IMG/VR virus record: IMGVR_UViG_3300005527_000084
Location: 1-48,022 of that record
Source: a virus
Length of the DNA stretch: 48,022 bases
Strand: one strand, 5' to 3'
In this document: in pieces, positions 26,101 to 48,022 of the stretch
Layout of the letters: the number at the start of each line of letters is the position of its first letter
Position numbering within the stretch: position 1 is the first letter of the stretch
Position numbers and translations under genes: made by a program
The notes under the pieces: model-generated
What the model was told of the DNA's origin: nothing
The model's database searches: none
The model's input: only the letters and a program-made list of their open reading frames with translations

Positions 26101-28788
26101 TTCAATCCAGTCTACAAGAGCTTGACCCGGAGAATCAGCTGCCGCGCGCAAACCGCCTTTAACATTTCCGGATGTGGCGTAGTTCTCTACGAGCATTTCT
26201 TCGCGGATATACTCTAAGAATTTATCGACGCTGTCAAACTGATCGATAAACGATTGTCCTCCCATGCGAGCAGCATAGTTTTGGCCATACCGCATGACCT
26301 CGGCTTCGCTATAAATACCCGGGATTTCGGCAATAACTTGACCGTTATCGTCTTTAATTTTCCGCCCGAACATTTGTTGTTCGAGTTGTTCTAACCCTAG
26401 AGCATCGCGGACTTCTTTAAACTGTTTTAATACGTGGAAACTTTCATGCCGCAGGGTGTGGCCAGGATTGAAACCTTCTCTTCCAAGATGGGAAAGAAGG
26501 TTTCCATTCAAAGCCACAATAGGAGAGTCCAGGTTTGCCGGAATCAAATGCGCCGGTTGATTAATGTAATGATTTTTGTGAAGCGCAAAGCCGCGCGTAC
26601 TTTTTGCCGCTTCCACCATATCGCTAGCGAGCTTGATGGTCTGTTCGGCTTTTTGCAGTAATTCGGCTTCATTCGGTTCCAATGTTGGTTTGCCAGCAAT
26701 TTGACTACGGAAGAATTCTGCATCGGCTAAAGTTTTTCCCCAGATTTTGCGAATTTCCTCTTCGGCATTTGCATCATCTAGAATTTTAAAGCTTGGACTG
26801 CCTAAACCGGCTTGGTTTCCTATAGCTTTAAGTTGTTCTAAAGCGTCTGCAAAATCTAACGTGACTTGACGCTGAACTTCGTCGGTAAACTGTTTGTTAT
26901 TCTTGTTCTGGTCTAGTAAGTTTCGATGTCTGGTTAACGTATTCATTTCGTCTTGCCAGAATTTCCACTCTCGACTATTTTTAGTTGAATCGCGGTAAGT
27001 TTGGAACTGCTTTATTTGTCCGTCAAGTGTAGCAATTCGCGCATTAACGTCAGAAAATGCGTTTATCTTAGACTTTACGTTTTCATCCGCTAAATCCATG
27101 AATCTTGCAATATCGGCATCCTCGTCTGCACGACGCGATACCGGATCCGGATCAATAAACTGATCTATTTTTGTACTGAAGTTAGTCGTCGGATCAAGAA
27201 GAGCGCTTACTCGACCGACCGGATCTGAACCCATGACAAGGCCAATGCCTACACCAGTTCCAAGCGACTGACCAAGTTGCGTAGGGTTCTCAATTTCAGG
27301 CAACCCTAGCATAACGTTTAACGCCGCGCCACTAGTTCCAGCTCGAGTCATTGCGCCAGTATAACGGCCAATCCAATCTGCCGACCGCGCGCGCATGAGA
27401 CCGCCTTTTGTCGTACCAAAAAGTCGGCGGTTAAACTCGCTAGAACGCGCATCTCCGCCTATTTTTTCGGCTAGTCCTTTCCGACCGCGCATTCCTTGCT
27501 TATCAATTTGGCGGCCCGCGTCTCTGAGTAAACGTCCAGTTCCAGTTAAAATTTTTCCAGAAAGATACGTAGGAACTTGCGGGACTAAACTAATATTTTT
27601 CAGTAAAGTGTCAGGATCACCGGTCAAAACTTGACTAAGTTTACGTCCTGCTATATTTGAAAACTCCGAAGCTTTTTCCAAACCCATGCCGACGGCTTCA
27701 ACAGGATGCACACCTTTAATCGTCCCGGTCAAAGCTTTGGCTGTTAAATCTGTGCCTTTACGGAACGGTTTTGCAATAACTTTTGAGACCGGTTGAACTA
27801 GTCTATTCGGTAATCCGAGTGGGTTAAAGATTTCCCCGGCTAAAGCCATTTCTTTATCCGGCACAATGGACTTTTCAAGGATGCTCTTTCGGTAATCTTC
27901 TTGCGCAACGTCTAGTTGTTCTGGAGTCAGTTCAACGCCCTGCAATGCCGAAGTTGTGGCTATAATCGGTCGAACTAGCGGGTTTTCAGCTAATAGCGCT
28001 GCCGCGCGATCCGGATTTTCATTAGCTTTTGCCGCGGCTTCGCGCGTCATGTAAGTCCGATCTACGAAGTCTTTAAAGGATTCTTTTTCGGTCTTTGTAC
28101 CTAAAGCTTCTTGAACTCGGTCGGTAAAGGAACTTCCGAAGTTGTAAAATTTAGTGGCGGATCCAGCGGTTTCCTCTAGATCATTAGCCATACCAGAAGC
28201 TACAGAACGTAGAGCAAGTTCAGCATCCGCCGCTTCTTTAACTTGTTGCGCGTTTCTATCCCAAGGATGCAAGAACTTACTACCGGCAGTAGGAATATTT
28301 GCGCCTGGACCGAATTGTGTAGCATAAAGACGTTCTCCGCCTAACGCCGTAGAAACTTTATTGATTACTTCGGATGCTGCGTCAACAGGCAAACCCACGA
28401 TATCTGATAGTGCTCCGGCAGGATTTGCTACGACTTGATCGACGGCGGCTTCTTTCGTAAATTTACCAAGTCCTATTCCGGTATCTACCGCCATTTCGGC
28501 CACCCTAGGAAGAAAATTCGTAGCAACTTCAGTAGCTTGGTCTACTAAAGGTTGTTCTCGCTGTTTTTCAAATACAATTTTTAATTGCTCTTGATCGAGT
28601 TCTGGGTCGCCTTCATTGTAACGTTCGTATAGCGAATCGGGATCTTTGTCTTTTTTGCGGCGTATGATTTCTGAAGTCGGAACTTTAGATTTCAGTTTTT
28701 CGCGTATTTGTTCGGATGCACTAACTGACGAAGGAGGCTGTTGGCCTCCTTCTCTCAGACGTTTTCGGATTTCTTCAGAAGCGGACAT
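17164..28788 (-). CDS. Giant polyvalent virion effector polyprotein (zincin, three ART-like, two GNAT domains)
   Basis: A 3,874-residue protein, the last gene of the late operon and about a quarter of the window. From N to C: three short SxSExIR repeats (1-46); long helical and glycine-rich virion-type regions; a zincin motif H-E-S-F-H at 781-785; a large unassigned region; three degenerate ~75-residue repeats (1994-2370). Next is a KptA-like ADP-ribosyltransferase fold (YHLT, H2400; about 2396-2510). Then an R-S-E type ART with R3014, the SWST motif S3059 and E3134-x-E3136. Then GNAT 1 (YRGAGYG at 3382-3388), GNAT 2 (GYG at 3556-3558) and an ART-PolyVal-like domain starting VFYHG (H3632). 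The C-terminal domains are separated by [F/Y]MP motifs. Polyvalent proteins of this type in phages and conjugative elements are thought to enter the cell with the DNA and counter host functions. Target molecules are unknown. The Shine-Dalgarno site is weak. Confidence 0.85.
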   Translation of the reverse strand: MSASEEIRKRLREGGQQPPSSVSASEQIREKLKSKVPTSEIIRRKKDKDPDSLYERYNEGDPELDQEQLKIVFEKQREQPLVDQATEVATNFLPRVAEMAVDTGIGLGKFTKEAAVDQVVANPAGALSDIVGLPVDAASEVINKVSTALGGERLYATQFGPGANIPTAGSKFLHPWDRNAQQVKEAADAELALRSVASGMANDLEETAGSATKFYNFGSSFTDRVQEALGTKTEKESFKDFVDRTYMTREAAAKANENPDRAAALLAENPLVRPIIATTSALQGVELTPEQLDVAQEDYRKSILEKSIVPDKEMALAGEIFNPLGLPNRLVQPVSKVIAKPFRKGTDLTAKALTGTIKGVHPVEAVGMGLEKASEFSNIAGRKLSQVLTGDPDTLLKNISLVPQVPTYLSGKILTGTGRLLRDAGRQIDKQGMRGRKGLAEKIGGDARSSEFNRRLFGTTKGGLMRARSADWIGRYTGAMTRAGTSGAALNVMLGLPEIENPTQLGQSLGTGVGIGLVMGSDPVGRVSALLDPTTNFSTKIDQFIDPDPVSRRADEDADIARFMDLADENVKSKINAFSDVNARIATLDGQIKQFQTYRDSTKNSREWKFWQDEMNTLTRHRNLLDQNKNNKQFTDEVQRQVTLDFADALEQLKAIGNQAGLGSPSFKILDDANAEEEIRKIWGKTLADAEFFRSQIAGKPTLEPNEAELLQKAEQTIKLASDMVEAAKSTRGFALHKNHYINQPAHLIPANLDSPIVALNGNLLSHLGREGFNPGHTLRHESFHVLKQFKEVRDALGLEQLEQQMFGRKIKDDNGQVIAEIPGIYSEAEVMRYGQNYAARMGGQSFIDQFDSVDKFLEYIREEMLVENYATSGNVKGGLRAAADSPGQALVDWIEAKTRNGSLKQLKEALRSRGIIFDSQGQFSTALGAKIDPESSALMRRVTRLIRDEIGSYTFETDGLNPDGTEKVRDDGDIPWAVVMSSPALQEQYISDDRFVKDQVLAAYDDAGNKISEVVLPDGVGLDPYIAQYYMKDGKIVDEAGNEIVLGQPVNLSALPNGSKVETDFRIRRNPDGTPVVISPREANARATKRGKIIYDAIITAPEDGMPKMRDVDNNGVLTGVLSPAQLQAVLNLPNNLVPARLKRIIAEGNAMLQRKDGTRAIIDYQAVYRGGKARSLAPRVRDIVPLSWRISQKQNFLFTSISVSRMFDKLNVWSSKFPENLTLWNGDTFSFWQDLLKVLNNHNAGLTGDGKNSSNQYVGERLDADDAVAELKKHRVNDFFNLFDKGTEALNPMRTKIKAKKGQDSPDRLIMSARVDRINHFQESASTKLPVDYGKMKINFMPNLNYTVPSDPRTLMADFYLINYLSGFSDVPFQGNLAGLSETSLAKYSGENPEAISFLRSEDYRPIVKVTQDRLQTFLKEHLLDQVFFSLSAEIRHAIKRSQDPAIYGPIMNQYIKYFSAYDAPSPYEGRKPGVPEEFKTSESIRKKSWQATTRALENYGGKDFAKARRKDLALEMAKVFREGAWSSGYGGEKWAQIAEAFVLLHYANTPEKIAFAIDKVYDLQHNTNTVFNKIERYAKDGGYSWVMEMLDFKYHLKNPRELLPLVSSDLKKLALPVLKDFGNATAPTKEFLQKVATDEVGPEAVGELTEFIQKMKPGYSIYPRIGVSAPKESGRDFSTELSKWLQSKLTSYAPKKSEIITREDGTQYAVDVKPPKAFIELAQLLISEKMGSKPVGVFASKEMKQIFENVKNQNLAEQSAIENAQLINNSDEPQQTDAGVKISDDEILQGAQDLVTGKKNTFRVGEYSFKLENSSGYDPQGDPYSSTILVAVDESGAAIDEIDPLAEGLVPTSVEDYNEIALLYSDFIKASLGIKKKQTFLTTHYLNFLGDTLIGKNVGQKTEFQVSTPNGLATYIATNTGQQGTALPVKTFTISKKGSMKESGEYNPDETLFEISGTTAEELKGKLKENFRALEAGVKLKSPAKPEASAWKKKWKSQMLDALQTQNIYKSNTGPVYSQDQAQKLLEAIVDEKTGELTTDLSFIQTKSGVNAPYSQQADFIKAAIGEAVKLKSQAKPEASAPKEIDPSALDEYVADNFEDFGLEFYDVDNLITNDVPEFQIKSAIEKYKSLISRGTFKPHSEIITLFENTLIGTEIAKAIDQAIKNSVKEHAEENKTLDAIYGTPKPILEGVLPDQFESAEDWKTAMMSENAGYYSDAEKQDILDAIINPNTGEVAQNLQQVWKKTGIIPPPPGASIAYPWVQKAWSTAHYPTPAVTSPKSKINTWFEKSKKTLMSEYWDSNGYFGGAFSMDDLIPVLKAIVNPDTGEIETDADKVLKKSGIETSQIHFDKLFKFYKFIEAVTNEALTSGIKPVSNKKPPTPANEPVFGTTDPYVYHLTSNDPDVIASITEKGILPSKRGYSGPGVYFGNTPENTQVYDDLDSETSFILRVNKNKLLDAFGQYSQVVKMGLQFDPYNGEVYLSTDDMGALETIPPEWLEYKNSSGVWVPLVETKTNKSLQEPTGEKELYQMETEDGESGFATDDLFSFNDAYGSKKNILEYWKEGVAWPPGVSGFEKLKVGGDPWKLKLFKRIKTALGDSAKETSIDTFGTAYAEEILNIHESAWDMLQGISAESFQKALDLATMQDLNSIIQATSFEPELYQEYLRWSKPDGTKNPPASFMPSEEYGLESGEKSESRLTPKTLYNLYYISTEGDPGNEYGRSLQNEYIKKYKDLYLNVFSDLVKNQINKYIRRGRVDPFVTKEALKNAKSASQLDELMRGTYRSDMRRRNDVWNLVTEFLKGLESAQTRDQRLFYMDRLNNAIHNTDELLFSKFSNASDLMAAFNLIANARDVRAYSRNVDRDLRLSSDFGGPAGSFMPTVLSEVGLTPEHMQSVNAAFRDRNRLKDMVARYVKTGNENDFAAIAADPVFSVFMQEQKPRQGRSLPSAELSSWLRELNRSVKNGDAADIKRARSSVTRLLNDPKSFNTKEIAEIISNYVNENRQSNQLWRIEGAAPYTGEPVESFRGIALNGPLIEGLKVGDTLEVDSSAYESWSTDPKVAIRFATKISNTGMDMFGSTMQWLRNKSEAEKENRKGLPGDYGLVLSTVLDSDSVAIDVSELNASSRYVNESELIARPGKKLVTIAAIYRDYGEDSTPERVETSIYADRDFTIELDPDSVENKLMAHARRNWRNPEEYGSYVEKSSQIRNAVDSNDTSTLVKLLNETFAADDIEAEALGSSESGIKVLVKNTNPLNVHRYFGKGESLSKVAQGIPSFMPTQAALNRTKKNLPKHEINITERIPKNKYDGPREAFIFISIPKGEKMKRGTKYGESYLDQYEGADLPEDEKRIIGFAHVYVGHEFDAKSLAVEFTNVAKPYRGAGYGQALYRAVARYAQKTGMKYLYAMEVSPEAAAVRNKLFEEKPRKGERSWSKGVEGVDPRDLWPFERGVGGMRSVVPPNISYMPTSNPDLSQVTLDERKAKLPEVTFKEISEEYELDEMDEEEMGDEVSTPKAFKVFNKKGKEVGQFSFFEDSDSIVVNHTFVNKKDRNKGYGEQIYRELARIAQRNDASLLVSDQVSESAAKTRRKLFEEEETMDGMWENDGEAMVSAVAPNISYMPTSLDGVFYHGVDKNKSGEIPKTLSKDKSALYPAYEEEQTPVTYLTPDPGQALYYSSEGDVFAGNLVNQNIFDPSDEEDIKKVAGTDKQIRKELEAGKDKVSGGGSVEFYAKLINQAGFDGYIAWESNVPTVGIFTDKVDLGDFYLEKDADSLDSDFMPEEMGPPINQDGPGLAETALPNTDRGPLSKASYMPGYNPRYSNDDGSFNRDAWLNDRRRAEEFLRRRGVYRSSSTEDEWEEMVRDAMREVRRQS
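17914..18404 (-). repeat. 29-base direct repeats flanking the second GNAT module
   Basis: The sequences at 17914-17942 and 18376-18404 are identical at 28 of 29 bases and encode the same peptide (NISYMPTS). They bracket the second GNAT domain exactly. This is the footprint expected of a tandem domain duplication or a recombination-driven module insertion. Confidence 0.75.
21679..22809 (-). repeat. Three degenerate ~75-residue protein repeats
   Basis: Residues 1994-2072, 2206-2270 and 2289-2370 of the giant protein share a pattern. It is an N-terminal aromatic/Lys helix ending in a Met, then a Tyr-containing turn, a helix ending in L-x-A-I-[VI]-[DN], the turn [PK]-x-TGE-[LVI], and [KT]-K-[ST]-G-[VI]. 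The core turns read VDEKTGEL, INPNTGEV and VNPDTGEI. They look like an ancient internal duplication forming a helical or spacer module. Confidence 0.6.
22538..22850 (-). repeat. 39-base direct repeats in the giant gene
   Basis: The sequences at 22538-22576 and 22811-22849 match at 37 of 39 bases. They encode the linker VKLKSxAKPEASA on either side of the first ~75-residue repeat. Recombination between them would delete or amplify one module in frame, because the 273-base spacing is divisible by three. Confidence 0.75.
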
Positions 28789-31802: not shown

Positions 31803-32603
31803 TTAGTTCCTTAACCCGCAATACGGGATTTTAGGTTCGCATATTTGAACCGACTCCGATACATTTGGAATGACCATGTCGTTTAGTTTCGGGCACTTAA
31901 CATACTCAGGGGAATTTTTATTTATGCAATTTGTGCAAGCGTGGTAATAGTCGCTATTTAGATGTTTATCGGATTTGGTTTTGATAATTCCATCCACCAC
32001 TTCATAACGGTTTTCGTCAAAAGGAATATTATTGTTTAGCGTGTAATCGGACACGTCTTTTTCAGACCAATCTTTTAAAGGAAACCAAATATCCGCAGAA
32101 TTCGGGATTTTTTGAATGTCCAATTGAAGCGGAATTGGTCCGCTTAAAGGATCTACGTCGCAACTTTTGTGCCCGCAAATAAGACTGTCCCAAACAAACT
32201 CGGTTTTGTCAATTTTGGGTCTTAAAAGCCACTCAACTCCGCATACAAATTTTTTATTTGGCTCGTACGGTTCGGTTCCTCTGGCGATGATTAAACTTTC
32301 CTGGCCGATGGAATAGGATTCCATAAAATCAATCCTATCGTTTCCATAACAAAGCGCGATAGACTTAGGCATCGAGTCATAAACCGAAAGATTTAAATCT
32401 TGCGATAGTTTATTGTGGAACGACCACTTTGCTTTCATCCAAGGAAGAGTCCATTGAATGCAGTCAATGTCTTTCTTCATCACTTCTTTTATCAGAAAAA
32501 GAAGGACGGTACTATCTTTTCCACCAGACCAAAGTAGCGCGGGTCTTTTCGATTTCTCGAAAACTAAGTGAATTTTTTCTACCGTTTTGTCTATGAGTTC
32601 CAT
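31803..32603 (-). CDS. PAPS-reductase-like PP-loop enzyme
   Basis: A 266-residue member of the adenosine nucleotide alpha-hydrolase (PAPS reductase/ATP-sulfurylase-like) superfamily. The PP-loop SGGKDS at 26-31, which binds ATP or adenylyl substrate, is followed by a typical Rossmann-like pattern. The C-terminal part has several cysteines (HACTNCINKNS...KCPK) that could bind a metal or Fe-S cluster. In phages, such enzymes are often found among structural genes with no proven role; possible roles include sulfur transfer to DNA or RNA, or sulfate metabolism. Here it interrupts a run of virion genes, with one-base spacing to the next stop, so it is expressed late. No Dnd-like partners are visible. 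Confidence 0.8.
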   Translation of the reverse strand: MELIDKTVEKIHLVFEKSKRPALLWSGGKDSTVLLFLIKEVMKKDIDCIQWTLPWMKAKWSFHNKLSQDLNLSVYDSMPKSIALCYGNDRIDFMESYSIGQESLIIARGTEPYEPNKKFVCGVEWLLRPKIDKTEFVWDSLICGHKSCDVDPLSGPIPLQLDIQKIPNSADIWFPLKDWSEKDVSDYTLNNNIPFDENRYEVVDGIIKTKSDKHLNSDYYHACTNCINKNSPEYVKCPKLNDMVIPNVSESVQICEPKIPYCGLRN

Positions 32604-35573: not shown

Positions 35574-38500
35574 CTATTGGCAAGTTACTCCAGAATTTAC
35601 GTAATCTTGAGCGATGGTCAGCGCGTTAATATCCGCATCAGTTTGACTTATTTGGCTCCTATAAACACCGCCAATTGAGTAAGCCAAAAACGAGTTAATA
35701 AAAGTGCCGTTAAAATCTAGTCGGGCAAATCGACTAGCAGTTTCTCCGTCGTATTCGGTAAATTTTCCGACGACAATCAACTTGTTGTCATTTATGATAA
35801 TTTGATTTGCGACATCATTAAACCCAGAACCCACAATAAATGAAGAATCGATCGTTCCGGTTGAAAGAATTTTAACGATTCGGTTTCTTGGACTTCCGTT
35901 GTATGACGTGAATGAACCCGCGGCATATACGTTACCGGTTGCGTCAATTACAATAGATTTTGCAGCAAAACCATTGCCAAATCCAGATCCAACATTGAAT
36001 GAAGAGTCGACAGTGCCATTGGCAAGTAGCCTGACTATATTTTTGTTTGAATTTATTCCTATGGATGAAAATATTATTTTCCCATCGGATTGAAGTGCCA
36101 AAGCGTAAAATAAATTATCTGAAGCATTGTGCTCGTAGTGTGTAAATGAAGTGTCGTCTGTTCCGTCTACATTCAAACGATTAACAGCAATTTTCGAATT
36201 TGTCCCAAAACCTGCAATTATCAGTTTCCCATCAGGTTGTTCAATAAAATCTCTAATAGAATCAAATGGCACGCTATATGTTTTGGCAACTGTCCCATTG
36301 GCATTCAATTTTATAATTGGCGATATTCCTGAATTTCCATTGTAGCTCGTAAATGTTCCAGAAACAAAAATTGATTGGCCGTCGTTGGCGATCTTTACTT
36401 TTCTGGCGGTTCCGGAAGGAAATCCCGCTCCAAAAGTTGGGGTTTGAGCTAAAGTTCCGCTTGAAGATAATTTTGTTATTCCGATTCTATTTTCACCGGA
36501 GTATTTTTGAAAATCGCCTACGCATATTGCGGACCCGTCGGAATAATTGGCAATTGAATACACATTGTAACTTACCGAAGGATCTAATGGGTTGAATGGC
36601 GTATTTACGAATCCGTTTGAGGCAATATTTACTGGCGTGTAGTTTGTCAGTCTTCCGCCATTAATTAACTCTTTTGCCGTTATTTTGCCTTGAAGTCTTG
36701 TGTTGTCAAACCAGAAATTTCCAACTAAAGCAAACTTATCCGGTAACGCGGTGATCGCGTTTACTTCGTCATTCAATACGCTAGAACATGTTCCAGGAGC
36801 AAATTTTACCGAGTCGTAGTAGCACGGATACCCTTGGACAACAACCGCGAGTTGATCTTCGGCGGCTTTTTGGGCCACAGCTAAAGCTTGAATATCGGCA
36901 TCGGCTTGAGAAACTTTCGATCGGTATGTTGCCACGGCCGTAACCGCCACAGGACCGGTTACCGAAGGCGAAGGACAAAGTCTTTCCGCTTTATACGATT
37001 GAGTCGATATGAAAATTGAAGCCACCGAATTTTCGTAGCGATCGCTTATTTTTATGAAATCTTTGGCTCTGCCGTACGAATGATTTTTTCCTTGTTCGTC
37101 GACGATGCAGACTTTAGTTTCATCTTCTTCGCATCTTCCATCTGACCGTTCTGGATGCGGTTCCATGAACATTCTTACCGATTCGACGGCTAATTGGCCG
37201 CACCACCGTATTAAAAGACTGAAAGCTTTGTCTATACTCTCTACGTTTTCGCTTTCGCATGTCGGACAACCAGTATCTAGATTTCCGTATTCGGTGATGA
37301 CCCGACGACTTTGTTTTCTTAGCACTCCTAAGTCTTCAGACGCGTCATCAGGAATATTTGCTCCGGCGTCGTCAATCGCGATTGGCGCGATAATTTCTTT
37401 GCATAAAACATTCTTATAGCTACCGCGCATCCCTTTGTAGTCGACTCTCAAAGAGACGTCGCCTGAAATTTCGATAAGATTTACGTCCGCGTACAAGAAT
37501 ACTTTCAAGTCGTGACCATCACCCATCAATCTCGTTTCAAATTCGCAATAAATCGGGCGGCGAAAAATTTCTATTTCATTATCGGCGCCGAGTTCAAAAA
37601 ATGAGTCTTCGCGTTCTGGCATAAACGCTTCCCAAATATGGTTGTGGCTTCCGTCTGATAGCGCATTATAGTCTACCGAAGCAGCAAATGCTCGGCGGCG
37701 ACTACCGATGTTGGCAGCGACCCATTGTACAGGTCGTATTCCAGTCCATACGCTAGACCAAGCCGGAATTTTTTCCGCAGAAGCTTCGCTCATGGTAGCG
37801 TAATCAAGAACGAAAGTTTCTGAATTTAAATTTTCGCTAATTGGCGCAGAAACGAGCAGATAGTTTTCAAAACTTAAAGTACAAATTCCGGATTGGTCGG
37901 AAGCTAGCGATTGCTTACTAAAAGCCATTTCCGCATCTCTAAAATTAATTTGGCTAGTTAAGTTTGAAGATGCCGCGGCATCCGAAGAAACAAGACCGCC
38001 AGCGCTATACCACCACATTAATCCAGATTGGAATGTGATGCTCCTTCCGGCAATGCATCCAGTACTAGGAAAAAGTATTGACTGAAAGTTTGGAGTGGTA
38101 GCCCATTTTGTCCGATCTCTTATTCCAGATTGAATAACTTCGCTTCTATTTTCTGTAAAAACGGTTAAAATTTCGGCTCGATTGTCGCCTAAAAACCCTA
38201 CAAGACCTGTTATATCTTTCGAAAAAAGAAAGTCGCCGCGACTCGACCCGTTTATTCGTTCTGAGAATCTTAGAGGATCAAAGAGATCGGAAGCCACGAC
38301 AACTTTTCCTCGTGCAACCCAAAGTCTTCCTCCTGAAAAAGCCATCCAGGTACCTCTAGGAGTTTGAAGACCAGGTTCAGCTTCTTTTAAATGTCCGGAA
38401 TCAAATCCGTCCCAAAACCCGGCTTCGCTGACACCGTCTTGGATTATGAGTATATTGTAACTAGGAACGAGTTGTATAGCTTGATTTGAAAGAGTCGTTA

Positions 38501-38894
38501 CAGTTTTTTCCGCAACGCAAAAATGAACCATGCTAGCCGCGGAATCGAATTTTAAATTCGGAATTTTAAAAAAATCCCAATCTTTTGGCTGGGCTAAAGG
38601 AAAAGGAGCTGCGTAAATTGAACCGTCTACGGCAAAAACAAGATAATCGGTTTCGGCTTCAGAGTTTTTTGTGGATACAAAATGTGCCATTCCCTGCAAA
38701 TTTCCTGCAGGAAGAGTCAGTTGATGCGCAAATCCGGGTCTTGTCTGGGCAATTCCGCCACGATTGACTATATTTACAGCCCTTCGGTATTGGTCTGGCC
38801 TTAAAAGCCAAGGATGACGAATAGTATTCATGCCAGCCGTCCATCCGGCATCCACGCTCACTAGTCTTCCAGCCGCGATATTTGGTGCCTGCAT
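35574..38894 (-). CDS. Large tail protein with delta-60 beta-propeller and DUF5977-like segments
   Basis: A 1,106-residue structural protein. Residues 1-620 form the phage-specific part (start MQAPNIAAGRL; many beta strands and a Cys pair CPTCESE near 540). At about 650-695 and again at 1070-1106 are segments YRSKVSQADADIQALAVAQ and YRSQISQTDADINALTIAQ ending in Cys, resembling DUF5977. Between them, about 779-1068, are seven delta-60-type repeats (pattern DGKIxxxGxFTxYNG..I.RLxxNGTxDxSF) that would build a seven-bladed propeller. This combination suggests an exposed host-contact module on a tail or tail-tube protein. The next upstream gene stops four bases before this start. Confidence 0.75.
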   Translation of the reverse strand: MQAPNIAAGRLVSVDAGWTAGMNTIRHPWLLRPDQYRRAVNIVNRGGIAQTRPGFAHQLTLPAGNLQGMAHFVSTKNSEAETDYLVFAVDGSIYAAPFPLAQPKDWDFFKIPNLKFDSAASMVHFCVAEKTVTTLSNQAIQLVPSYNILIIQDGVSEAGFWDGFDSGHLKEAEPGLQTPRGTWMAFSGGRLWVARGKVVVASDLFDPLRFSERINGSSRGDFLFSKDITGLVGFLGDNRAEILTVFTENRSEVIQSGIRDRTKWATTPNFQSILFPSTGCIAGRSITFQSGLMWWYSAGGLVSSDAAASSNLTSQINFRDAEMAFSKQSLASDQSGICTLSFENYLLVSAPISENLNSETFVLDYATMSEASAEKIPAWSSVWTGIRPVQWVAANIGSRRRAFAASVDYNALSDGSHNHIWEAFMPEREDSFFELGADNEIEIFRRPIYCEFETRLMGDGHDLKVFLYADVNLIEISGDVSLRVDYKGMRGSYKNVLCKEIIAPIAIDDAGANIPDDASEDLGVLRKQSRRVITEYGNLDTGCPTCESENVESIDKAFSLLIRWCGQLAVESVRMFMEPHPERSDGRCEEDETKVCIVDEQGKNHSYGRAKDFIKISDRYENSVASIFISTQSYKAERLCPSPSVTGPVAVTAVATYRSKVSQADADIQALAVAQKAAEDQLAVVVQGYPCYYDSVKFAPGTCSSVLNDEVNAITALPDKFALVGNFWFDNTRLQGKITAKELINGGRLTNYTPVNIASNGFVNTPFNPLDPSVSYNVYSIANYSDGSAICVGDFQKYSGENRIGITKLSSSGTLAQTPTFGAGFPSGTARKVKIANDGQSIFVSGTFTSYNGNSGISPIIKLNANGTVAKTYSVPFDSIRDFIEQPDGKLIIAGFGTNSKIAVNRLNVDGTDDTSFTHYEHNASDNLFYALALQSDGKIIFSSIGINSNKNIVRLLANGTVDSSFNVGSGFGNGFAAKSIVIDATGNVYAAGSFTSYNGSPRNRIVKILSTGTIDSSFIVGSGFNDVANQIIINDNKLIVVGKFTEYDGETASRFARLDFNGTFINSFLAYSIGGVYRSQISQTDADINALTIAQDYVNSGVTCQ

Positions 38895-38897
38895 AAA

Positions 38898-41882
38898 TTA
38901 ATCCAACCAATCGTCAGGGTTTGACATTATGTCGGCGTTGACTTGTATAGGGGTAATTCTTGCACCGTCAATTGCGCGATTCCGCTTATTTAAGTATTCG
39001 ACGGCGATGGCTCTATAGCGTTCGGATTCATCGGCAAATTTTCGCATCAGAAGTTCTTGAGATTGAACCATCATGAGTATTGCCATCTTGGAATCGAGAT
39101 TGATGAAATCATATTCCGTCATTAAGTCATAACTACGACGGCGGTATTTCATTCTGATCCATTTTGCGTTATCTCGTATTTTTATCCGCCTGTAAGCCGG
39201 ATTGGTTTCAAAAAAAGGAGAATTTCCTAAAAACGCGATGTTCTGATCTCTGCCGGTATCCCAAGCGTAAAGTCTTTTAAAACCATCTGTAATCGGATGC
39301 TGTATGTTATGAATTTCGGCGATGTTAATTTCTGGAACGGAAAAAACCAATTTTTGTACGCCGGATCCTGTAGAAAAAAACGTCAGTCTTCCAGTAATAG
39401 AGGTTGTATTTTCGGCTTCGGCTTTACTTCCGTATAGTTCAACGGTATCTTGCGTTAGTGATCTTACAAAATATGTCGTATTAGGTAAAAGCGGATCCGG
39501 AAAATCCAACTCGGCCTCAACGCTGACTTCAGTTCCTGTGGAAAATGCTTGATTTGAGACGTCTAAGCTTGTCGCGGCATCGACAGTTAATGCTCTTGCA
39601 ATTTTTAGTTTATGCGTTCCTGACCCAATTCCGGTAAAAGAAACGAGGACATTAGATGTCGTATAAACTTCAATTTGGTCGTTAACTACAGAAACTAAAT
39701 ACGGAGAACCAGAAATAAGAGGTTGGGGAAGCGTCCCGGTTGTCGTAAATGTTGCCGGAACTAAATTTCCGAGAAACGCCGAAAACTCAATATCCAATTG
39801 ATTGTCTCTAGGAACTATTTGCGCGGATCTTTCAGTAAAACCGTAAAGTTTTCCTATTCCCAAAGAAATTGCCGAAATTATCCCAGTCGTAGTCGCCGTG
39901 TTTATCGCCTGTTGATACTGGCCGTACAGTTGAATTCGTGTATCGCCGAGTTTTCGTATGTAAAATGGATTTTGCGTGTCTATTTGAGGAGACGTAACCG
40001 GAACGGCTCCTGTCGTAAATACTCTAACCGCAGATCCAGTTACAAATGAAGTCGCACTTAGTTGCCAGTCTTGCGAAAATCCGACTGAAAAAGTCCTATT
40101 AATAACTAAGAAAAGCGAACCACTTCCTGTAGACGTGATATTTATAGGTTCAGGGATTGCCGAGCTTACCGTAAAACTCGTAAGTCCCATCGGATTTAAA
40201 TCGGTGCCTTCTGCTCGATAAACAGCTTCCGCAGTTAACGGTGCTGGAAGCGTTCCAGTTGTCTGGAATTGAATAAAACTTCCAGAAGCCGGAACAAACT
40301 GTACTGCCGGAGCGGTTGTATATCCTGTACCTCCAGTGATTACAGAAACTGCGACCACTTTTCCGCCGGATACCGTAGCGACGGCTGTTGCACCAGTTCC
40401 CCCGCCTCCGGTTAGTTTGATAACAGGAGAAACATTATAACCGGTTCCGGCGGCCGTTATATTTAACGAGGTGACGGTACCATTTGTTATGACTGAAGTC
40501 CCCGTTGCTCCACTTCCAGAAGGGTTATTTAAATTGTGCGGAACACTAGTCGTTATATTTGCCGAAGCACCCGTAGTTACCGTAGAAATTGGGATTATTT
40601 TTTGTACGACACTTATGCCAGAACCTAATGACGTAAAAACTATTGAATTTAAATTTCCAGTTGCATCGGCCGATGTATTATGCAACGTTATTCGGGTGTC
40701 GTCTATTTTCCGTACAAAATAAGTCGTATTTTCGACAAGAGGTTCCGGCATATCTCCGCCAGAATTTTTGACGGTGACACTGTCTCCGGTTATAAAGTTA
40801 TGAAAGACAGAAAAGTTTAGGGTTGTTACCGGATCGAGAGACAAGAGTTGCCGAAGTTGGAGTCCAGAACCCGGATCTGTAACATTTACAGGATCGGTGC
40901 CCGACTTTGCGTCTTGCAAAGTTTTATGTATATTAAAATTCTCGGTTCCAGCAGTTTTAACGTAGAATATGTTGTCGGCTTTTATTTCAGGCGGATACGT
41001 CGTTGCGCCAAACGCAACTATATCTAAATCATTTAGCCCGTTAGCTCCAAAAGTTTTTACCATCGTCCGAGCCGTCGTACTTCTTTCGTCGATAAGCGAA
41101 ATTGAAGAGTTAGACGACAATTTTGTTACTTGAATCGGACTTTGATTTAATTGCGCGTCAAGTCTTGTTGCGTGAATGGTAACCGTGTTTAAATCGACCG
41201 CCCGTACGTAATAATAAAAACCATTATTGAGAGGTTGCGGAAATAATCCGGTATTGGCCAAGGCCTGCATTCTAACGCCCGTTATCAGCTTATGGTCTGT
41301 AGATGAACTAAAAAACTTCATTACCGAAGTAGTGAATATTCTTTTTTGAGTTCTAGTTAAAGGTTTTGCAGTTGGTATTAAAGCAGAAAATTCAAATGGC
41401 AAGAATATCCCATCTAACCACAGACCGTCTTCGGTTTGTTGTCTAAGTGTATTCCCAAATTCGTCAATTCCCATTATTCGGGTCTGCAATCCTTCATCAG
41501 ACCTAAGATCGCATCTGGCTATAACAGGACCCGGAACTTTTATATCCATGGTTGTCGGGACAATTCCGACGTCGTCCCAAACCCAAGGAACAACTCTTTC
41601 GTCGGTTAATCCGTCACCATTTAAATGAAATCTAGAAAATTCATCTCTACCAAATACCGGGATACCATCGATTGTGACAGCCAACGGAGTTTCGACCTCT
41701 CGCGGCAAAGTTACGGTATTTCCGTCATTGAAAGTCCTTATATCAAGGACGCCAATGTTGGCATTCCAGTCGCCTTCGTCTTGGAGGGCTCTTACTGCGT
41801 CGGTAAGGCGTTTAAGCGCTTTTTCGCGATCGCATCTTCCAAGAATTTCTACGACATCGTCGAGGATCTCAGAGACGAACAT
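38898..41882 (-). CDS. Large tail structural protein with repeated beta-modules
   Basis: A 994-residue protein. The N-terminal 130 residues and the C-terminal 120 residues (ending with DNAKWIRMKYRRRSYDL and NKRNRAI) are the conserved-looking ends of a head-tail adaptor or tail tubular protein. The middle holds about seven degenerate repeats. Each has a TGxxV strand, a P-[EQD]-PL turn, a [YF]-[FYV]-V-[RK] strand and a terminal L-[HY]-x-[TS]-x2-[DE]-A, often separated by GTG- or SGSG-rich linkers. This expansion resembles virion adhesive domains. It is encoded next to the propeller protein, with which it probably interacts. Confidence 0.65.
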   Translation of the reverse strand: MFVSEILDDVVEILGRCDREKALKRLTDAVRALQDEGDWNANIGVLDIRTFNDGNTVTLPREVETPLAVTIDGIPVFGRDEFSRFHLNGDGLTDERVVPWVWDDVGIVPTTMDIKVPGPVIARCDLRSDEGLQTRIMGIDEFGNTLRQQTEDGLWLDGIFLPFEFSALIPTAKPLTRTQKRIFTTSVMKFFSSSTDHKLITGVRMQALANTGLFPQPLNNGFYYYVRAVDLNTVTIHATRLDAQLNQSPIQVTKLSSNSSISLIDERSTTARTMVKTFGANGLNDLDIVAFGATTYPPEIKADNIFYVKTAGTENFNIHKTLQDAKSGTDPVNVTDPGSGLQLRQLLSLDPVTTLNFSVFHNFITGDSVTVKNSGGDMPEPLVENTTYFVRKIDDTRITLHNTSADATGNLNSIVFTSLGSGISVVQKIIPISTVTTGASANITTSVPHNLNNPSGSGATGTSVITNGTVTSLNITAAGTGYNVSPVIKLTGGGGTGATAVATVSGGKVVAVSVITGGTGYTTAPAVQFVPASGSFIQFQTTGTLPAPLTAEAVYRAEGTDLNPMGLTSFTVSSAIPEPINITSTGSGSLFLVINRTFSVGFSQDWQLSATSFVTGSAVRVFTTGAVPVTSPQIDTQNPFYIRKLGDTRIQLYGQYQQAINTATTTGIISAISLGIGKLYGFTERSAQIVPRDNQLDIEFSAFLGNLVPATFTTTGTLPQPLISGSPYLVSVVNDQIEVYTTSNVLVSFTGIGSGTHKLKIARALTVDAATSLDVSNQAFSTGTEVSVEAELDFPDPLLPNTTYFVRSLTQDTVELYGSKAEAENTTSITGRLTFFSTGSGVQKLVFSVPEINIAEIHNIQHPITDGFKRLYAWDTGRDQNIAFLGNSPFFETNPAYRRIKIRDNAKWIRMKYRRRSYDLMTEYDFINLDSKMAILMMVQSQELLMRKFADESERYRAIAVEYLNKRNRAIDGARITPIQVNADIMSNPDDWLD

Positions 41883-42528: not shown

Positions 42529-43071
42529 TTATTTACCTTCTAGTAGAAGATACGGAATTGTTTTTTGGTGGTATCTATTCATTTCTGAGTAGACGAGATT
42601 GATGAATCCGTCCCATTGCGGCGGGTAAATTGTTTGGCAACCCTCAGATGAAGTCGTTCGATAACCTCCGCGATGGATATTAATGGCAATGCCCATGTCG
42701 TCTCCGGTAACATCCCGCGTAACCGGAAGTTCTTCTTTTGGGTTAGCAGGTCGCAATGCCGGGTAGCCGCCTCCGGGTTTAGAGATACCGTGATTACCTT
42801 TGCGGTATCTGTGAACGCCCGTTTTAAGAACCGCGATGCCTTTTTTGTAAACCGAAGGATCCGTGTTAGCATTAAAAGTAGCATGGACTGACGGAGAAAT
42901 TAAAATTATGGCATCGTCGTAGATGCCTCTATCGTTTTTTCCTTTTTCTCCCATGCTATCCAGATAATATCCGCGAATCCCGACCAACGAAACAACGTCT
43001 TCAATCCCGGCTTTGATAACCATAGCCAAGGTTTTTTCTTTTGCTTGTTGCGGTCGGGAATTTGGGATCAT
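42529..43071 (-). CDS. L,D-transpeptidase-fold putative peptidoglycan enzyme (endolysin slot)
   Basis: A 180-residue protein at the end of the lysis cassette. The segment IAINIHRGGYRTTSSEGCQTIYPPQWDGFI holds H133 and the S142-E143-G144-C145 motif, matching the HxxG...SxGC active site of YkuD-type L,D-transpeptidases. There is no signal peptide, so it would need the holin to reach the murein. In this position it is probably the endolysin, using the fold to cut or rearrange peptidoglycan cross-links; classical lysozyme, amidase or endopeptidase motifs are absent. The ATG overlaps the holin stop (ATGA). Confidence 0.65.
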   Translation of the reverse strand: MIPNSRPQQAKEKTLAMVIKAGIEDVVSLVGIRGYYLDSMGEKGKNDRGIYDDAIILISPSVHATFNANTDPSVYKKGIAVLKTGVHRYRKGNHGISKPGGGYPALRPANPKEELPVTRDVTGDDMGIAINIHRGGYRTTSSEGCQTIYPPQWDGFINLVYSEMNRYHQKTIPYLLLEGK

Positions 43072-43400: not shown

Positions 43401-43673
43401 TTATTTTTGTTCCAATCGACGCAGACGTTGCTCGTGGTCGAGAATAGCGAGGTCGTGTCGTTTATCGGTTTCAGCGTTTGCTTCCATACGAATTAAAACG
43501 GCTTCAATTTTTTCAATCCTTTGATTAACCATGGCGAACTCTTCTCGGGTCGCAAATTTTGTTCCTAACAAAGCTACACCCACGAGGGCCGCAAATGTTC
43601 CTAACTTTAACGCGTTATCAAAATAACGCATAACTTCGTCGCTTTTTCGTCGGTATGGGTTTTCTTCGGGCAT
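43401..43673 (-). CDS. Membrane-anchored coiled-coil lysis-cassette protein
   Basis: A 90-residue protein with an N-terminal basic segment, one transmembrane helix (about 22-40, LKLGTFAALVGVALLGTKF) and a C-terminal heptad-like helix (MVNQRIEKIEAVLIRMEAN...). This is the plan of an inner-membrane spanin or a class of phage membrane proteins near holins. It lies five bases upstream of the lipoprotein gene and just after the giant adhesin gene. The role in lysis is inferred. Confidence 0.65.
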   Translation of the reverse strand: MPEENPYRRKSDEVMRYFDNALKLGTFAALVGVALLGTKFATREEFAMVNQRIEKIEAVLIRMEANAETDKRHDLAILDHEQRLRRLEQK

Positions 43674-43674
43674 A

Positions 43675-46600
43675 TTAGCTAATTGTTAAAGTTGATGTTG
43701 TTTTGTTGTAAGTTCCAGTCCTTCCTGTAGCACCAGTCAAAGCAACAGCCGAATACGTATTTGTTGTATCTGCAGGGAAAAATTTCCAGGTTGACCCAAC
43801 TGCAGGAACTGGTCCTGTGAAAGTTACATTGAGTGTGGTTCCTGCCGTAAAACTTCCTGTTGCAGTTGTTGTGCCGCTTACAACAGATCTTGTCAGCGTT
43901 CCTGCGCTTATCGTTGTAGAGCCATCGTAGTTGTGCGCATGGTTGCCAAGGTTTAGCGTTCCTGTACCAACTTTTGTTAGAGTAGAAGCGTTAGATGGTC
44001 CTGCTGTTGAAATGGCACCAGAAAGTGTTATTGTTCCTGCACCATCAAATGCTAGTGGTGCTGGCCATACGCCAAGAAGAGAGTCATTTCTGGTTATGCC
44101 ATTTATTGTTAAAGTTAATCCTGCTGCACTCGCTATTCTGTTTACTGCAGAGCCGCCAACTTTAAGAACTCCAGACCCTATCGTGTTGTTCAATGCCGTG
44201 TTGTTCAAAGCACCTTGAGAAGAAACACCATTGCCAGAAATTGTTGTTAATTTTGAAAATGTTCCTGCAACTGTAGGTTGAATTTGAAGAGTTGCTCCAT
44301 CGTTAACAATAACTTCAGATGATGTTCCAAAGGAAGAAAAAGACGTAATTCTTAAAATTCCTTGCAGGACAGATGTTGTGCCTGTGTAGGTGCTTGTTGT
44401 TCCAGAAAGAGTCAAAGTTCCTGAACCGGTCTTTTGGAGAGTTCCAGTTGTCAGAGCTATTTGATTGCTGGCAACAATTTCTGCTCCTGCCGCGGTTGTA
44501 AAAATTAAATTCCTTGTTGCTCCAGTGATTGTTCCTGAAATTGTAAAAATTCCAGCAGAAGATCCAATTGTTGAATCTGCGCCAAGTGTTATTGCTCCTG
44601 AAAAAGTATTATTTCCAGAGCGATTCATCAATGATCCTTCAGATGTTGCTCCAATTCCGCTAATTGTGACGGCTCTGGCAAATGTTATTGCTCCTGAAAT
44701 TTCAAGAGATGCGTTTGTTGCGGCAGTTATTGTTCCGGCGGTTCCAAGAGCTGAAGCATTGGAAATTCTAACTGCTCCAGAATTGATCGCCGTGGCTCCT
44801 GTATACGAATTAGCCGCAGATAAAATTATCGTTCCTGTTCCCGCACAAATTATTCCGCCAGTAGTTAAAGTTATTATTCCAGAAAGTGTAAGTGTTCCAG
44901 CGCCGCCAAGAGTTAAAGTCCTTGTTGCTCCACTTATGGCTCCAGAAATCGTCAAAGATCCGGCAATGCTATGAATTCGGGCATTAGCCGCCATTGTTAT
45001 AGCCCCGGACATCGAATTTGTTCCAGAAAGGTTGGCAATTGCTCCGTCAAATGCTGCTCCATCGCCAGAAATTGTCAATGGCTCTGCAACAAGAGTTATT
45101 CCTCCGCTAACTTGAAGAGATGCTCCTGAATTTACAGTTGTTGCTGTTGCAATTGTGCCGAGAGCTGAAGCATTGGCGACTATAAGGTACCCGGCATTGA
45201 TTGTAGTAGTACCGCTATATGTGTTTGCTCCAGCTAGAGTCCATTTTCCTGTTCCAGATTTTACAAGCGATATAAAGGCTGTTCCTGTGGCTGGAGAAGT
45301 CACTAAATTATCACGAATTGTTCCAGAAATTTGACCATCAGAGCTACCGCCAAGTGTCAGAGTCCTTCCAGCACCAACTCCAGTTGTTGCATTTGTCTGA
45401 ATATTGAAAATTGCTGCAGAAAAAATTATCGTTCCTGTTCCGTTTGAAAGTATTATTGCCCCGCCAATGTCAGTTGCTGCAGGAGTTGCTGCATTTATTC
45501 CAACTCTTATTGTTCTATTCGATGTGTCTCCAGATCCTTGATAATTTAAAGTCCCAGTTGTCCCAAAACCACCAAATTGGACAGGATTTGAAGAATCAGC
45601 ACCAAGACTCGATGGTGTTGAAAAATTTTTTATGGAATTTACATTTGTTGTTCCAGAAAAAACGTGAAATCCGTTAATAAACGTATTCGCTCCAAAAATT
45701 GAGCACTGACCTAACACCATATTAACTACAACGCCGCCAGTTCCAGAAATAATTCCAGAAGAAACAATCGATCCAGAAGAGTTAGATACAAAAGTTAAAA
45801 GGTTGCCAGAAGGATTTATATTGTTTGATAAAACTAATGTGCCAGATTCACAACCAATTCTTGCTGTTGAATTTAAAGTTATTGTCCCAGAAATCTCATT
45901 CGACCCACTTAAATTTTTTATTGCCCCACTGTTGTCAGGACCAAAAGAATTTATTGTGATTGGCCTAGATATAACGATATTATTTCCTAAATTAAACGCT
46001 GTTCCTGATAAAATTGTTAATTGTGAAGAAGAACTCCCAAAAGACAAAGAATTTGTAGCACGCAAAACACCTGCATTTACATTAATTGCTCCTGAAAATG
46101 TGTTTGCTCCATCGAGTTGCAGTGTCCCAGAGCCAAGTTTATTAAAAGTTCCTGTGCCAGAAATAACTCCAGTCAATGTTAGTGCTACTGCTGTTTCCAA
46201 TTCACACCCGAACTGATCTATTAATATCTTTTTATCCGTTGTAGTCGCCGTTCCAGTATAAAGTATTTTAGATAGAGAGTTGATTCCTGCTTTAATCGGA
46301 AGTGTTCCTGCACCAAATGGGCCAGGAACGTTATCAAAATTGAAATTTGAAACAGAAACTGTGCCTCCGTGTATCAAAACTTGTCCTGTAAATGTGTTTG
46401 TTCCGGAAATTACCAGTATGTTTGAACCAAATTTTGCAATTCCAATGCTTCCAGAACCTGTTCCTGTGGAGTCTGCTATAATATTTGATAGCGTAAATGT
46501 TCCGCCAGCGGCATTTGTCGTGTTGAATCCGAAAAATGATCCGGCTTTGAAACCATTATTTGATATCGATGATGCTAAAAGCAACAGACTCGTTATGTCT

Positions 46601-47487
46601 GAAGATGCAAATTCTCCAGTTCCGCCGACATTGATGGCGAATATTCCATTTGAATTGACAATTATCTTATCTTTTGTCCAACTTGCAGACTGACCGTTGT
46701 AAAGAGATGCGATTTTTTCAAACTGTAGAGTGCCGGATAAAATATTTACTATTCCGGTGTTTGTGTTTGTCGCGTTAAACGCGACGGTAGATGTGCCGGA
46801 TTTATCTATTTGACCGGATCCGGAAATTGGAGAAGCTACAATTATATTGTTGCTGCCGGTGAAAACAATAGTTCCGGCGTTTGTAAACGAAGAACTCGTT
46901 AGTTGTCCGCTTGTTTGACGGGATATTGTCAATTTTGCGGCAGAGAGTACTATTGTCGCGCCAGTATAAGTGTTATTGTTCGTAAGTACAACGTCTCCGC
47001 CGGATGTTAGCGTTCCAATACCAGAAATTATTCCGGAAAGTGTCTGTTGAGTTGGCGTTATTATTGAAAATTGAGTGGCGTTTGATATTGCCCCAGAATA
47101 ATTCCCATTCCCAAGAACTCCTGTTTGAATTTCTAAAACACCATCAGTTATTTCTGTATTTCCAGAATAAGTGTTTATTCCTTTCAGCGACAATTTTCCA
47201 GTTCCAATTTTCCTGAGCGATCCAATTCCAATTATTTTTTGATTTATTGTGCCGTCAGCAGATTGTCCAGAAATAAAAAGAATTGCTTGTCCACTTGGGT
47301 TAGTTAAATCAACTGAATTCCCTGCAAACCCATCGATGAATGTTATAAGATTTGGATTCCTTATCGTTACTTCAATTAAATTTTTAAAAACGGACAGATC
47401 TAAAAAACTACTTATAGACTGCGAAAAAGTACCGAAGTCTATTTTCTGTATATTTTCTGTCGGGGTTAATGAAGCAGAAAATGGCAT
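43675..47487 (-). CDS. Giant beta-strand-repeat adhesin (autotransporter-associated repeats)
   Basis: A 1,270-residue protein made almost wholly of autotransporter-associated beta-strand repeats (PATR type). Units such as GANTYSGTTTINAG, NTYTGATIV, ANSYTGATAINSG and GNNTFSGAIT recur about ten or more times along the chain. It has no signal peptide and no C-terminal autotransporter beta-barrel, so it is not a secreted autotransporter; in a phage late operon it is most likely a tail fibre or spike with a long beta-helix. Such repeats are abundant in Verrucomicrobia-type surface proteins. The far N-terminus (MPFSASLTPTENIQ) should be the virion attachment part. There is no clear ribosome binding site. 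Confidence 0.8.
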   Translation of the reverse strand: MPFSASLTPTENIQKIDFGTFSQSISSFLDLSVFKNLIEVTIRNPNLITFIDGFAGNSVDLTNPSGQAILFISGQSADGTINQKIIGIGSLRKIGTGKLSLKGINTYSGNTEITDGVLEIQTGVLGNGNYSGAISNATQFSIITPTQQTLSGIISGIGTLTSGGDVVLTNNNTYTGATIVLSAAKLTISRQTSGQLTSSSFTNAGTIVFTGSNNIIVASPISGSGQIDKSGTSTVAFNATNTNTGIVNILSGTLQFEKIASLYNGQSASWTKDKIIVNSNGIFAINVGGTGEFASSDITSLLLLASSISNNGFKAGSFFGFNTTNAAGGTFTLSNIIADSTGTGSGSIGIAKFGSNILVISGTNTFTGQVLIHGGTVSVSNFNFDNVPGPFGAGTLPIKAGINSLSKILYTGTATTTDKKILIDQFGCELETAVALTLTGVISGTGTFNKLGSGTLQLDGANTFSGAINVNAGVLRATNSLSFGSSSSQLTILSGTAFNLGNNIVISRPITINSFGPDNSGAIKNLSGSNEISGTITLNSTARIGCESGTLVLSNNINPSGNLLTFVSNSSGSIVSSGIISGTGGVVVNMVLGQCSIFGANTFINGFHVFSGTTNVNSIKNFSTPSSLGADSSNPVQFGGFGTTGTLNYQGSGDTSNRTIRVGINAATPAATDIGGAIILSNGTGTIIFSAAIFNIQTNATTGVGAGRTLTLGGSSDGQISGTIRDNLVTSPATGTAFISLVKSGTGKWTLAGANTYSGTTTINAGYLIVANASALGTIATATTVNSGASLQVSGGITLVAEPLTISGDGAAFDGAIANLSGTNSMSGAITMAANARIHSIAGSLTISGAISGATRTLTLGGAGTLTLSGIITLTTGGIICAGTGTIILSAANSYTGATAINSGAVRISNASALGTAGTITAATNASLEISGAITFARAVTISGIGATSEGSLMNRSGNNTFSGAITLGADSTIGSSAGIFTISGTITGATRNLIFTTAAGAEIVASNQIALTTGTLQKTGSGTLTLSGTTSTYTGTTSVLQGILRITSFSSFGTSSEVIVNDGATLQIQPTVAGTFSKLTTISGNGVSSQGALNNTALNNTIGSGVLKVGGSAVNRIASAAGLTLTINGITRNDSLLGVWPAPLAFDGAGTITLSGAISTAGPSNASTLTKVGTGTLNLGNHAHNYDGSTTISAGTLTRSVVSGTTTATGSFTAGTTLNVTFTGPVPAVGSTWKFFPADTTNTYSAVALTGATGRTGTYNKTTSTLTIS

Positions 47488-47488
47488 C

Positions 47489-48022
47489 TTATGTTAGTTT
47501 TGATGGTATCACAGCATTGAATCTCGTGGATGTAACAACTCCATTTGCATAGATAATATTTGCATAAGCAAAGAGATATTTAGCATTATCCGCTACTGGC
47601 ATTGAGCCAATCCAAGTTCGTCCATCATTCGTCGTTGTTACGCTAGACCAAACACGGCTAACATTGAATGGCTCCACTTCAGCTTTCCAGAACACAACAG
47701 AAGAAATTGTCAGCGATGTGTCTGGCTGGACATTGAATTGACAAGTTCCCGATACTTTGGACAACCATGATGCGGGTCGTTTCGGCCAAGTAATTGCAGA
47801 ACCAAGAACATACTTGTTAAGCCAAAGGAGTTCGTTGCCTACATTTAGAGACACATCGTGGTTCTTATTCGCATCATGCGAGAAGTCCCAAGGAATGCCT
47901 ACTGGTATCTTATCGAAAGTATCGTCTACTCTATCGTGTCCTCCGTGATGATCCGCTGATCCGTTGATAAGAAGAATTGGAACCCTTGTATACTTTGCCG
48001 TTGCTTCTGCCGTAGGTGCATT
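47489..48022 (-). CDS. C-terminal part of an alpha/beta-hydrolase (esterase-like) protein, cut by the window edge
   Basis: The last 177 residues of a larger protein, open to the right edge; the GTG at 47854 is only an internal codon of this frame. The segment VPILLINGSADHHGGHD, followed by PWDFSHDANKNHDVSLN, fits the late strands of an alpha/beta-hydrolase with the catalytic Asp (SADHHG) and His. The C-terminal 80 residues are a beta-rich domain (SLTISSVVFWKAEVE). It looks like a secreted acyl/dienelactone-type esterase domain reused in a phage tail, perhaps to de-acylate host surface sugars. The nucleophile region lies outside the window. It ends one base before the adhesin start. Confidence 0.5.
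   Translation of the reverse strand, partial: NAPTAEATAKYTRVPILLINGSADHHGGHDRVDDTFDKIPVGIPWDFSHDANKNHDVSLNVGNELLWLNKYVLGSAITWPKRPASWLSKVSGTCQFNVQPDTSLTISSVVFWKAEVEPFNVSRVWSSVTTTNDGRTWIGSMPVADNAKYLFAYANIIYANGVVTSTRFNAVIPSKLT

Follow-up and report, generated by a model that had tools for sequence, protein, structure and literature searches.

A phage late operon encodes a predicted beta-solenoid protein and an esterase-like alpha/beta-hydrolase that are probably separate host-contact modules

We analyzed a linear virus record of 48,022 bases (IMG/VR record IMGVR_UViG_3300005527_000084; hereafter the window), whose right part is occupied by a minus-strand late operon. Two ORFs that lie one base apart in the window encode a protein with autotransporter-type repeats and, upstream of it, an alpha/beta-hydrolase whose ORF is cut off by the end of the record. 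We think that these two proteins are probably independent modules of the virion that contact the host: a beta-solenoid fibre or adhesin, and an ester hydrolase that is carried on a fibre. An earlier note on this DNA had viewed them as a bacterial surface adhesin and a carbohydrate esterase that were captured together as tail components. Its descriptions of the two proteins were borne out, as shown below, while its account of their origin was not.

The repeat protein (43675..47487, minus strand; 1270 amino acids; the long PATR protein) does consist of autotransporter-type repeats. Its sole Pfam family is PATR (PF12951), with nine stretches, E = 5.6e-38, and 129.1 bits versus a cut-off of 27. 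The TIGR02601 beta-strand repeat from NCBIfam is also found in nine stretches (E = 5e-42, and 141.1 bits versus a cut-off of 19.85). Because threonine, glycine, and serine account for 42% of the residues, we controlled for composition. The long PATR protein scored 151 bits with a profile of short phage relatives (described below), versus 1.1 bits for the best domain among 300 residue shuffles, so the PATR match is not an artefact of composition. PATR repeats are also known from non-adhesive contexts.

The protein begins with about 90 residues that are conserved in two sister phages, continues with the nine PATR stretches, and ends in a C-terminal beta cap. The N-terminal 90 to 120 residues are probably the attachment end. 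(The first 120 residues are encoded by 47128..47487, minus strand, and the first ~90 of these are 57% identical in one sister phage, L131.) This 90-residue N-terminus was found only in the window's lineage and in the two sister phages, L131 and L149.

The long PATR protein resembles PATR/TIGR02601 proteins, and the IcsA passenger, in that its repeats score above the curated cut-offs and its predicted solenoid resembles 5ke1. Unlike a type Va autotransporter, it has neither a signal-like N-terminus nor a translocator barrel, as the earlier note had stated. Judging by hydropathy only, the best 19-residue Kyte-Doolittle mean within the first 40 residues is just 0.86, and there are no lysines or arginines among the first ten residues. 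Pfam finds no autotransporter translocator barrel at E <= 1, and the protein ends at the PATR cap. It also differs from the PATR/TIGR02601 proteins, and from the IcsA passenger, in having a phage-type cap and in being encoded in a phage late operon.

The earlier note had proposed structure prediction as a check for a beta-helix, and the prediction of a solenoid holds. The last part of the solenoid and the cap (residues 1002-1270; 43678..44484, minus strand) were modeled with AF2 from 45 sequences. The model is all-beta, with a mean pLDDT of 75 and about 88-96 for the cap. VIA matched this model to the Awp1 A-domain (Z = 11.8), pectate lyases (about 10.4), the IcsA passenger (5ke1, Z = 10.0), and the Dettilon tailspike (Z = 9.8), where Z scores of 10-12 are partly generic for solenoids. 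Foldseek gave nothing significant for the same model (the best match was IcsA, with E = 0.34), and the long PATR protein had no matches to PDB sequences with phmmer or to INPHARED phage records with tblastn.

Initially, the long PATR protein matched only the window itself and an identical contig. Three of the contigs that carry the hydrolase have short PATR ORFs, and these gave an entry point to a wider family: at 80 viral loci, we found relatives of about 287 amino acids with a C-terminal cap like that of the long protein. One of these short proteins aligns with the final 269 residues of the long PATR protein at 38.5% identity (275 columns, E = 1e-24), and the homology of the solenoid end and cap to the short family scores 85 bits, versus 1.1 for the best shuffled domain. 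An upstream gene is present at 78 of the short-PATR loci, and at 58 of these its product terminates in the tail-tip-type motif NT[LVI]Y[IV][IV]; the two genes mostly overlap by 4 nt. (This count rests on a regular expression because PF24243, which is above the curated cut-off in the upstream genes of L083 and L131, falls below it in several of the others tested.)

PATR-type repeats in phages are already catalogued. For example, phrog_15824 (tail fiber protein proximal subunit) matches part of the window's solenoid only (7e-15), and a protein of an uncultured Caudovirales phage in BFVD (A0A6J5M3L0, "Autotransporter-associated beta strand repeat") is a weak match (E = 0.34). A literature search on PATR plus phage turned up no account of such phage proteins, and tblastn of the short PATR against INPHARED gave weak matches only. 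PATR proteins are a widespread phage-resident family with its own C-terminal cap, so the direct capture of a bacterial adhesin that the earlier note envisaged is not supported. Autotransporter-type solenoid repeats are a regular feature of the late genes in a set of environmental phages.

Of the hydrolase, the window encodes just the C-terminal 177 residues (313-489 of 489; 47489..48022, minus strand). Another contig from IMG/VR, L002, is 100% identical to the window over its last 7,084 bp and extends beyond the end of the record, so that the complete gene (L002:7065-8534; 489 amino acids) could be examined. The alpha/beta-hydrolase-like domain that the earlier note had recognized from the truncated gene, with its SADHHG motif, is supported by Pfam's DLH family (PF01738; 27 bits versus a cut-off of 21), and the same stretch has weaker matches to S9, BAAT, and Abhydrolase_1. 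The note had also singled out the nucleophile as decisive, and it is present in the full-length protein: Ser256 lies within GHSYG (or GNSWG) at the nucleophile elbow, with its codon outside the window. Ser256, Asp336, and His367 are invariant in an alignment of 16 hydrolase relatives, down to 29% identity. Asp336 (codon at 47951..47953, minus strand) is the aspartate of SADHHG, or of STNDFHG in relatives; we propose that it is the catalytic acid, and its region aligns with the aspartate motif of the hydrolase in the 4hxe match. His367 (codon at 47858..47860, minus strand) is the proposed catalytic base.

Which kind of hydrolase is it? The closest folds are acetyl xylan esterases, in line with the carbohydrate esterase of the earlier note, but confidence in the AF2 model is low (mean pLDDT of 52). 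The top Foldseek matches of this model are acetyl xylan esterases (6agq, E = 4e-9). With VIA, they align to it over 214 residues (Z = 13.7, 4.3 A); as the model is weak, the fold match depends on about 215 aligned residues at that distance. A profile search of PDB sequences gave marginal matches (the best E was 0.0017), which include acetyl xylan esterases as well as an acylaminoacyl peptidase whose serine and aspartate motifs align. The CE7 acetyl xylan esterases and dienelactone-hydrolase-type proteins are the best fold matches of this weak model, and the window's protein resembles them in its PF01738 match and in the order Ser-Asp-His. It differs from the CE7 enzymes in being only about 15-19% identical, in having a phage-type N-terminal region, and in having an extra C-terminal domain, which is beta-rich. 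The CE7 signature consists of the motifs RGQ, GxSQG, and HE. All three are absent from the hydrolase alignment, which has GHSYG/GNSWG and HD/HN/HI/HV instead, so we call the protein an esterase-like alpha/beta-hydrolase and not a member of CE7.

This phage family of alpha/beta-hydrolases has no match in PHROGs over its catalytic part, and tblastn gave no match in INPHARED phage records. A scan of genome contigs with two degenerate patterns, which is a weak negative, found no bacterial relative. We propose that this serine hydrolase, with the triad Ser256-Asp336-His367, would be carried by the virion and act on esters of the host envelope; the simplest activity would be that of a polysaccharide deacylase, which would strip esters off the glycans of the surface. 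Deacetylases that act on surface polysaccharides are known from phage tailspikes or fibres, as in Aristophanes (PMC8471582) and PP99 (PMC6989608), and prophages of Klebsiella encode SGNH hydrolases that are surface polysaccharide deacetylases (PMC13123978). The proposed removal of glycan esters by a virion protein would be alike in all of these, but the Klebsiella examples are SGNH hydrolases, whereas the window's candidate deacylase has a different fold, that of the alpha/beta-hydrolases.

The hydrolase is present in 25 viral contigs. Downstream of it, most of these contigs have a small holin-like gene for a hydrophobic protein, frequently a gene for an Rz1-like lipoprotein, and a gene for a lysis enzyme. 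In the window, the lysis block opens with a holin- or spanin-like protein of 90 amino acids (43401..43673, minus strand), which has one hydrophobic segment (KD19 maximum of 1.54 at residue 24) and a charged tail; the equivalent position is occupied in relatives. A probable lysis enzyme of 180 amino acids (42529..43071, minus strand; phrog_3000, 5e-11) is also kept downstream of the hydrolase in relatives (cluster c3). On the other side, a DUF285/PARCEL (BspA-type) repeat protein precedes the hydrolase wherever the contig reaches far enough upstream. This constant partner is encoded at L002:5723-7042, with equivalents in L006, L010, L016, and L022. DUF285/PARCEL proteins are usually described from bacterial surfaces. 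A jumbo phage of Vibrio is reported to have PARCEL/DUF285 ORFs (PMC7765460). In both L002 and L006, the gene before the DUF285 gene has PF24243, a tail-tip domain, at its end, and in L006 it has collagen repeats as well.

A second, distant subfamily of the hydrolase occurs in 16 contigs. Most of its members have an N-terminal motif of the type [FL].P.[TS][GR]K[LI].[FY] (for example, F.NPFTGKLDF), which is common to adjacent collagen-like fibres. In contigs L055-L061, the hydrolases have a C-terminal extension of 250 residues, and the extension in L055 matches phrog_10356, "virion structural protein" (E = 1.8e-20). (A motif had suggested a LamG-type lectin for this extension in L055-L061, but Pfam gave no support for it, and PHROGs gives virion structural.) The window's hydrolase, which starts with MPIKIGTSSLSPV, has neither the N-terminal fibre motif nor the C-terminal extension. 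In the distant subfamily, the fibre-type N-termini and the fusion to a virion structural domain suggest that the enzyme is carried by the virion. One contig, L022, holds both subfamilies (L022:3055-4527 and L022:7062-8534) in the same fibre block, and the two are about 33% identical.

The sister phages L131 and L149 are syntenic with the window, and each encodes a long PATR protein of 1113 amino acids that is 56-57% identical to the window's. In L131, the gene order is capsid protein, small protein, short PATR, 71-aa gene, long PATR, and membrane/coil gene. In L149, it is capsid protein, small protein, long PATR, and membrane/coil gene, without the short PATR or the 71-aa gene. (The small protein has 154 or 258 amino acids.) In other words, the slot upstream of the long PATR gene holds the DUF285 and hydrolase genes in the window's lineage, a short PATR in L131, and neither in L149. 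Queries with the hydrolase and with the DUF285 protein found nothing in the L131 record, while each matched in three control records. L149 has no hydrolase gene at this locus, but as it is a 10.9 kb fragment, its genome could hold one elsewhere. Before these sister phages were compared, the long PATR gene looked like a lineage-specific insertion between the hydrolase and the lysis genes; they show instead that the long PATR is constant and that the hydrolase cassette is variable.

This exchange across the three phages implies that the hydrolase cassette is a module separate from the long PATR. The cassette, consisting of the hydrolase and the DUF285 repeat protein, occupies an exchangeable slot between a tail-tip-type protein with PF24243 and the long PATR. 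The long PATR protein itself would be a beta-solenoid rod, with a probable attachment end at its N-terminus and a capped C-terminus, and would act as a fibre or an adhesin. When the window's lineage is compared with L131, identity is 92.6% for the putative capsid protein and 56.6% for the long PATR protein, and about 150 solenoid residues of the window's protein are missing from L131's. Such fast divergence and the change in repeat number fit a host-contact rod, which may vary by losing or gaining repeats. More speculatively, the conserved long PATR and the slot behind the tail-tip-type protein could form a modular surface-contact array, in which enzymatic and adhesive-only strategies are swapped within one phage genus; we consider this possible but would not bet on it. 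The slot would then be filled by a DUF285-LRR and alpha/beta-hydrolase cassette or by a short PATR solenoid, or would be empty. Either way, the window, L131, and L149 are a natural exchange series with a nearly constant capsid, and could show what the esterase cassette adds to host contact.

The late-operon setting that the earlier note described also stands, with head-closure/baseplate matches to PHROGs in the flanking minus-strand ORF (38898-41882), a tail-collar gene nearby, and fibre genes beside the related loci. Placing the proteins specifically in the tail is another matter. The fibre and lysis block begins directly downstream of a putative major capsid gene (in L002, L131, and L149), so attachment to the head is possible. 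(The putative capsid protein has no match in Pfam or PHROGs, and is identified by its position, size, and conservation.) Head fibres of the phi29 type are encoded beside the capsid gene. If the PATR and hydrolase proteins sat on the capsid, as head fibres or decoration proteins, then they would make weak, reversible contact with surfaces and would not be part of the tail. The tail-collar fibre gene (PF12571; 33745-35007, minus strand) is separate from the PATR and hydrolase block, and the PHROG that matches the L055 fusion domain is filed under "head and packaging," both of which fit a location on the capsid. This is a serious alternative, but we consider it unlikely: in relatives, neighboring genes encode the PF24243 tail-tip domain and Peptidase_S74, both found mostly in tail fibres, and phrog_15824 is filed under tail.

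The proximity of both genes to the lysis block, and the gain and loss of the hydrolase cassette as an accessory, might instead suggest late cargo that is not structural and that acts on the infected cell or the lysate, for example by modifying glycans to limit re-adsorption. This seems improbable, as the PATR, hydrolase, and DUF285 proteins all lack a signal-like N-terminus and the distant hydrolase subfamily has its virion structural fusion and fibre-type N-termini. We give even less credence to the reading in which an esterase and an adhesin from a bacterial surface were captured jointly and now form one tail unit. The two genes are indeed just one base apart in the window, and PATR is named from bacterial autotransporters, but each protein occurs without the other: 24 further contigs have the hydrolase but no long PATR, while L131 and L149 have the long PATR but no hydrolase at the locus. 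Also, many phage-resident relatives of the PATR protein share its C-terminal cap. Thus, we favor two independent modules for host contact.

Several other genes in and around the window caught our attention. Immediately before the putative capsid gene, L002:1003-3827 contains glycosyltransferase-like and FkbM-methyltransferase-like genes (mostly judged by eye). In the tail region, a 1,106-aa protein (35574-38894, minus strand) has C-terminal DUF5122 beta-propeller repeats (1.1e-34) and DUF5977 repeats. About 120 bp (40819-40938) inside a 994-aa ORF are missing from the otherwise identical contig L002/L027, where the ORF is split; it is intact in the sister phages L131/L148 and L149, and the difference reflects either a mistake in assembly or a genuine variation in length. 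A 3,874-aa ORF (17164-28788, minus strand) has almost no family matches except to GNAT acetyltransferases toward its C-terminal end (PF00583 at residues 3349-3415, 2.7e-10, and PF14542 at 3523-3574), and is possibly a giant virion protein that is ejected. Finally, two genes are of metabolic type: 31803-32603 (minus strand) has an N-terminal match to PHROGs for PAPS reductase (2e-8), and 3313-4161 (plus strand) matches phrog_7093, "threonine dehydratase" (1.6e-32).
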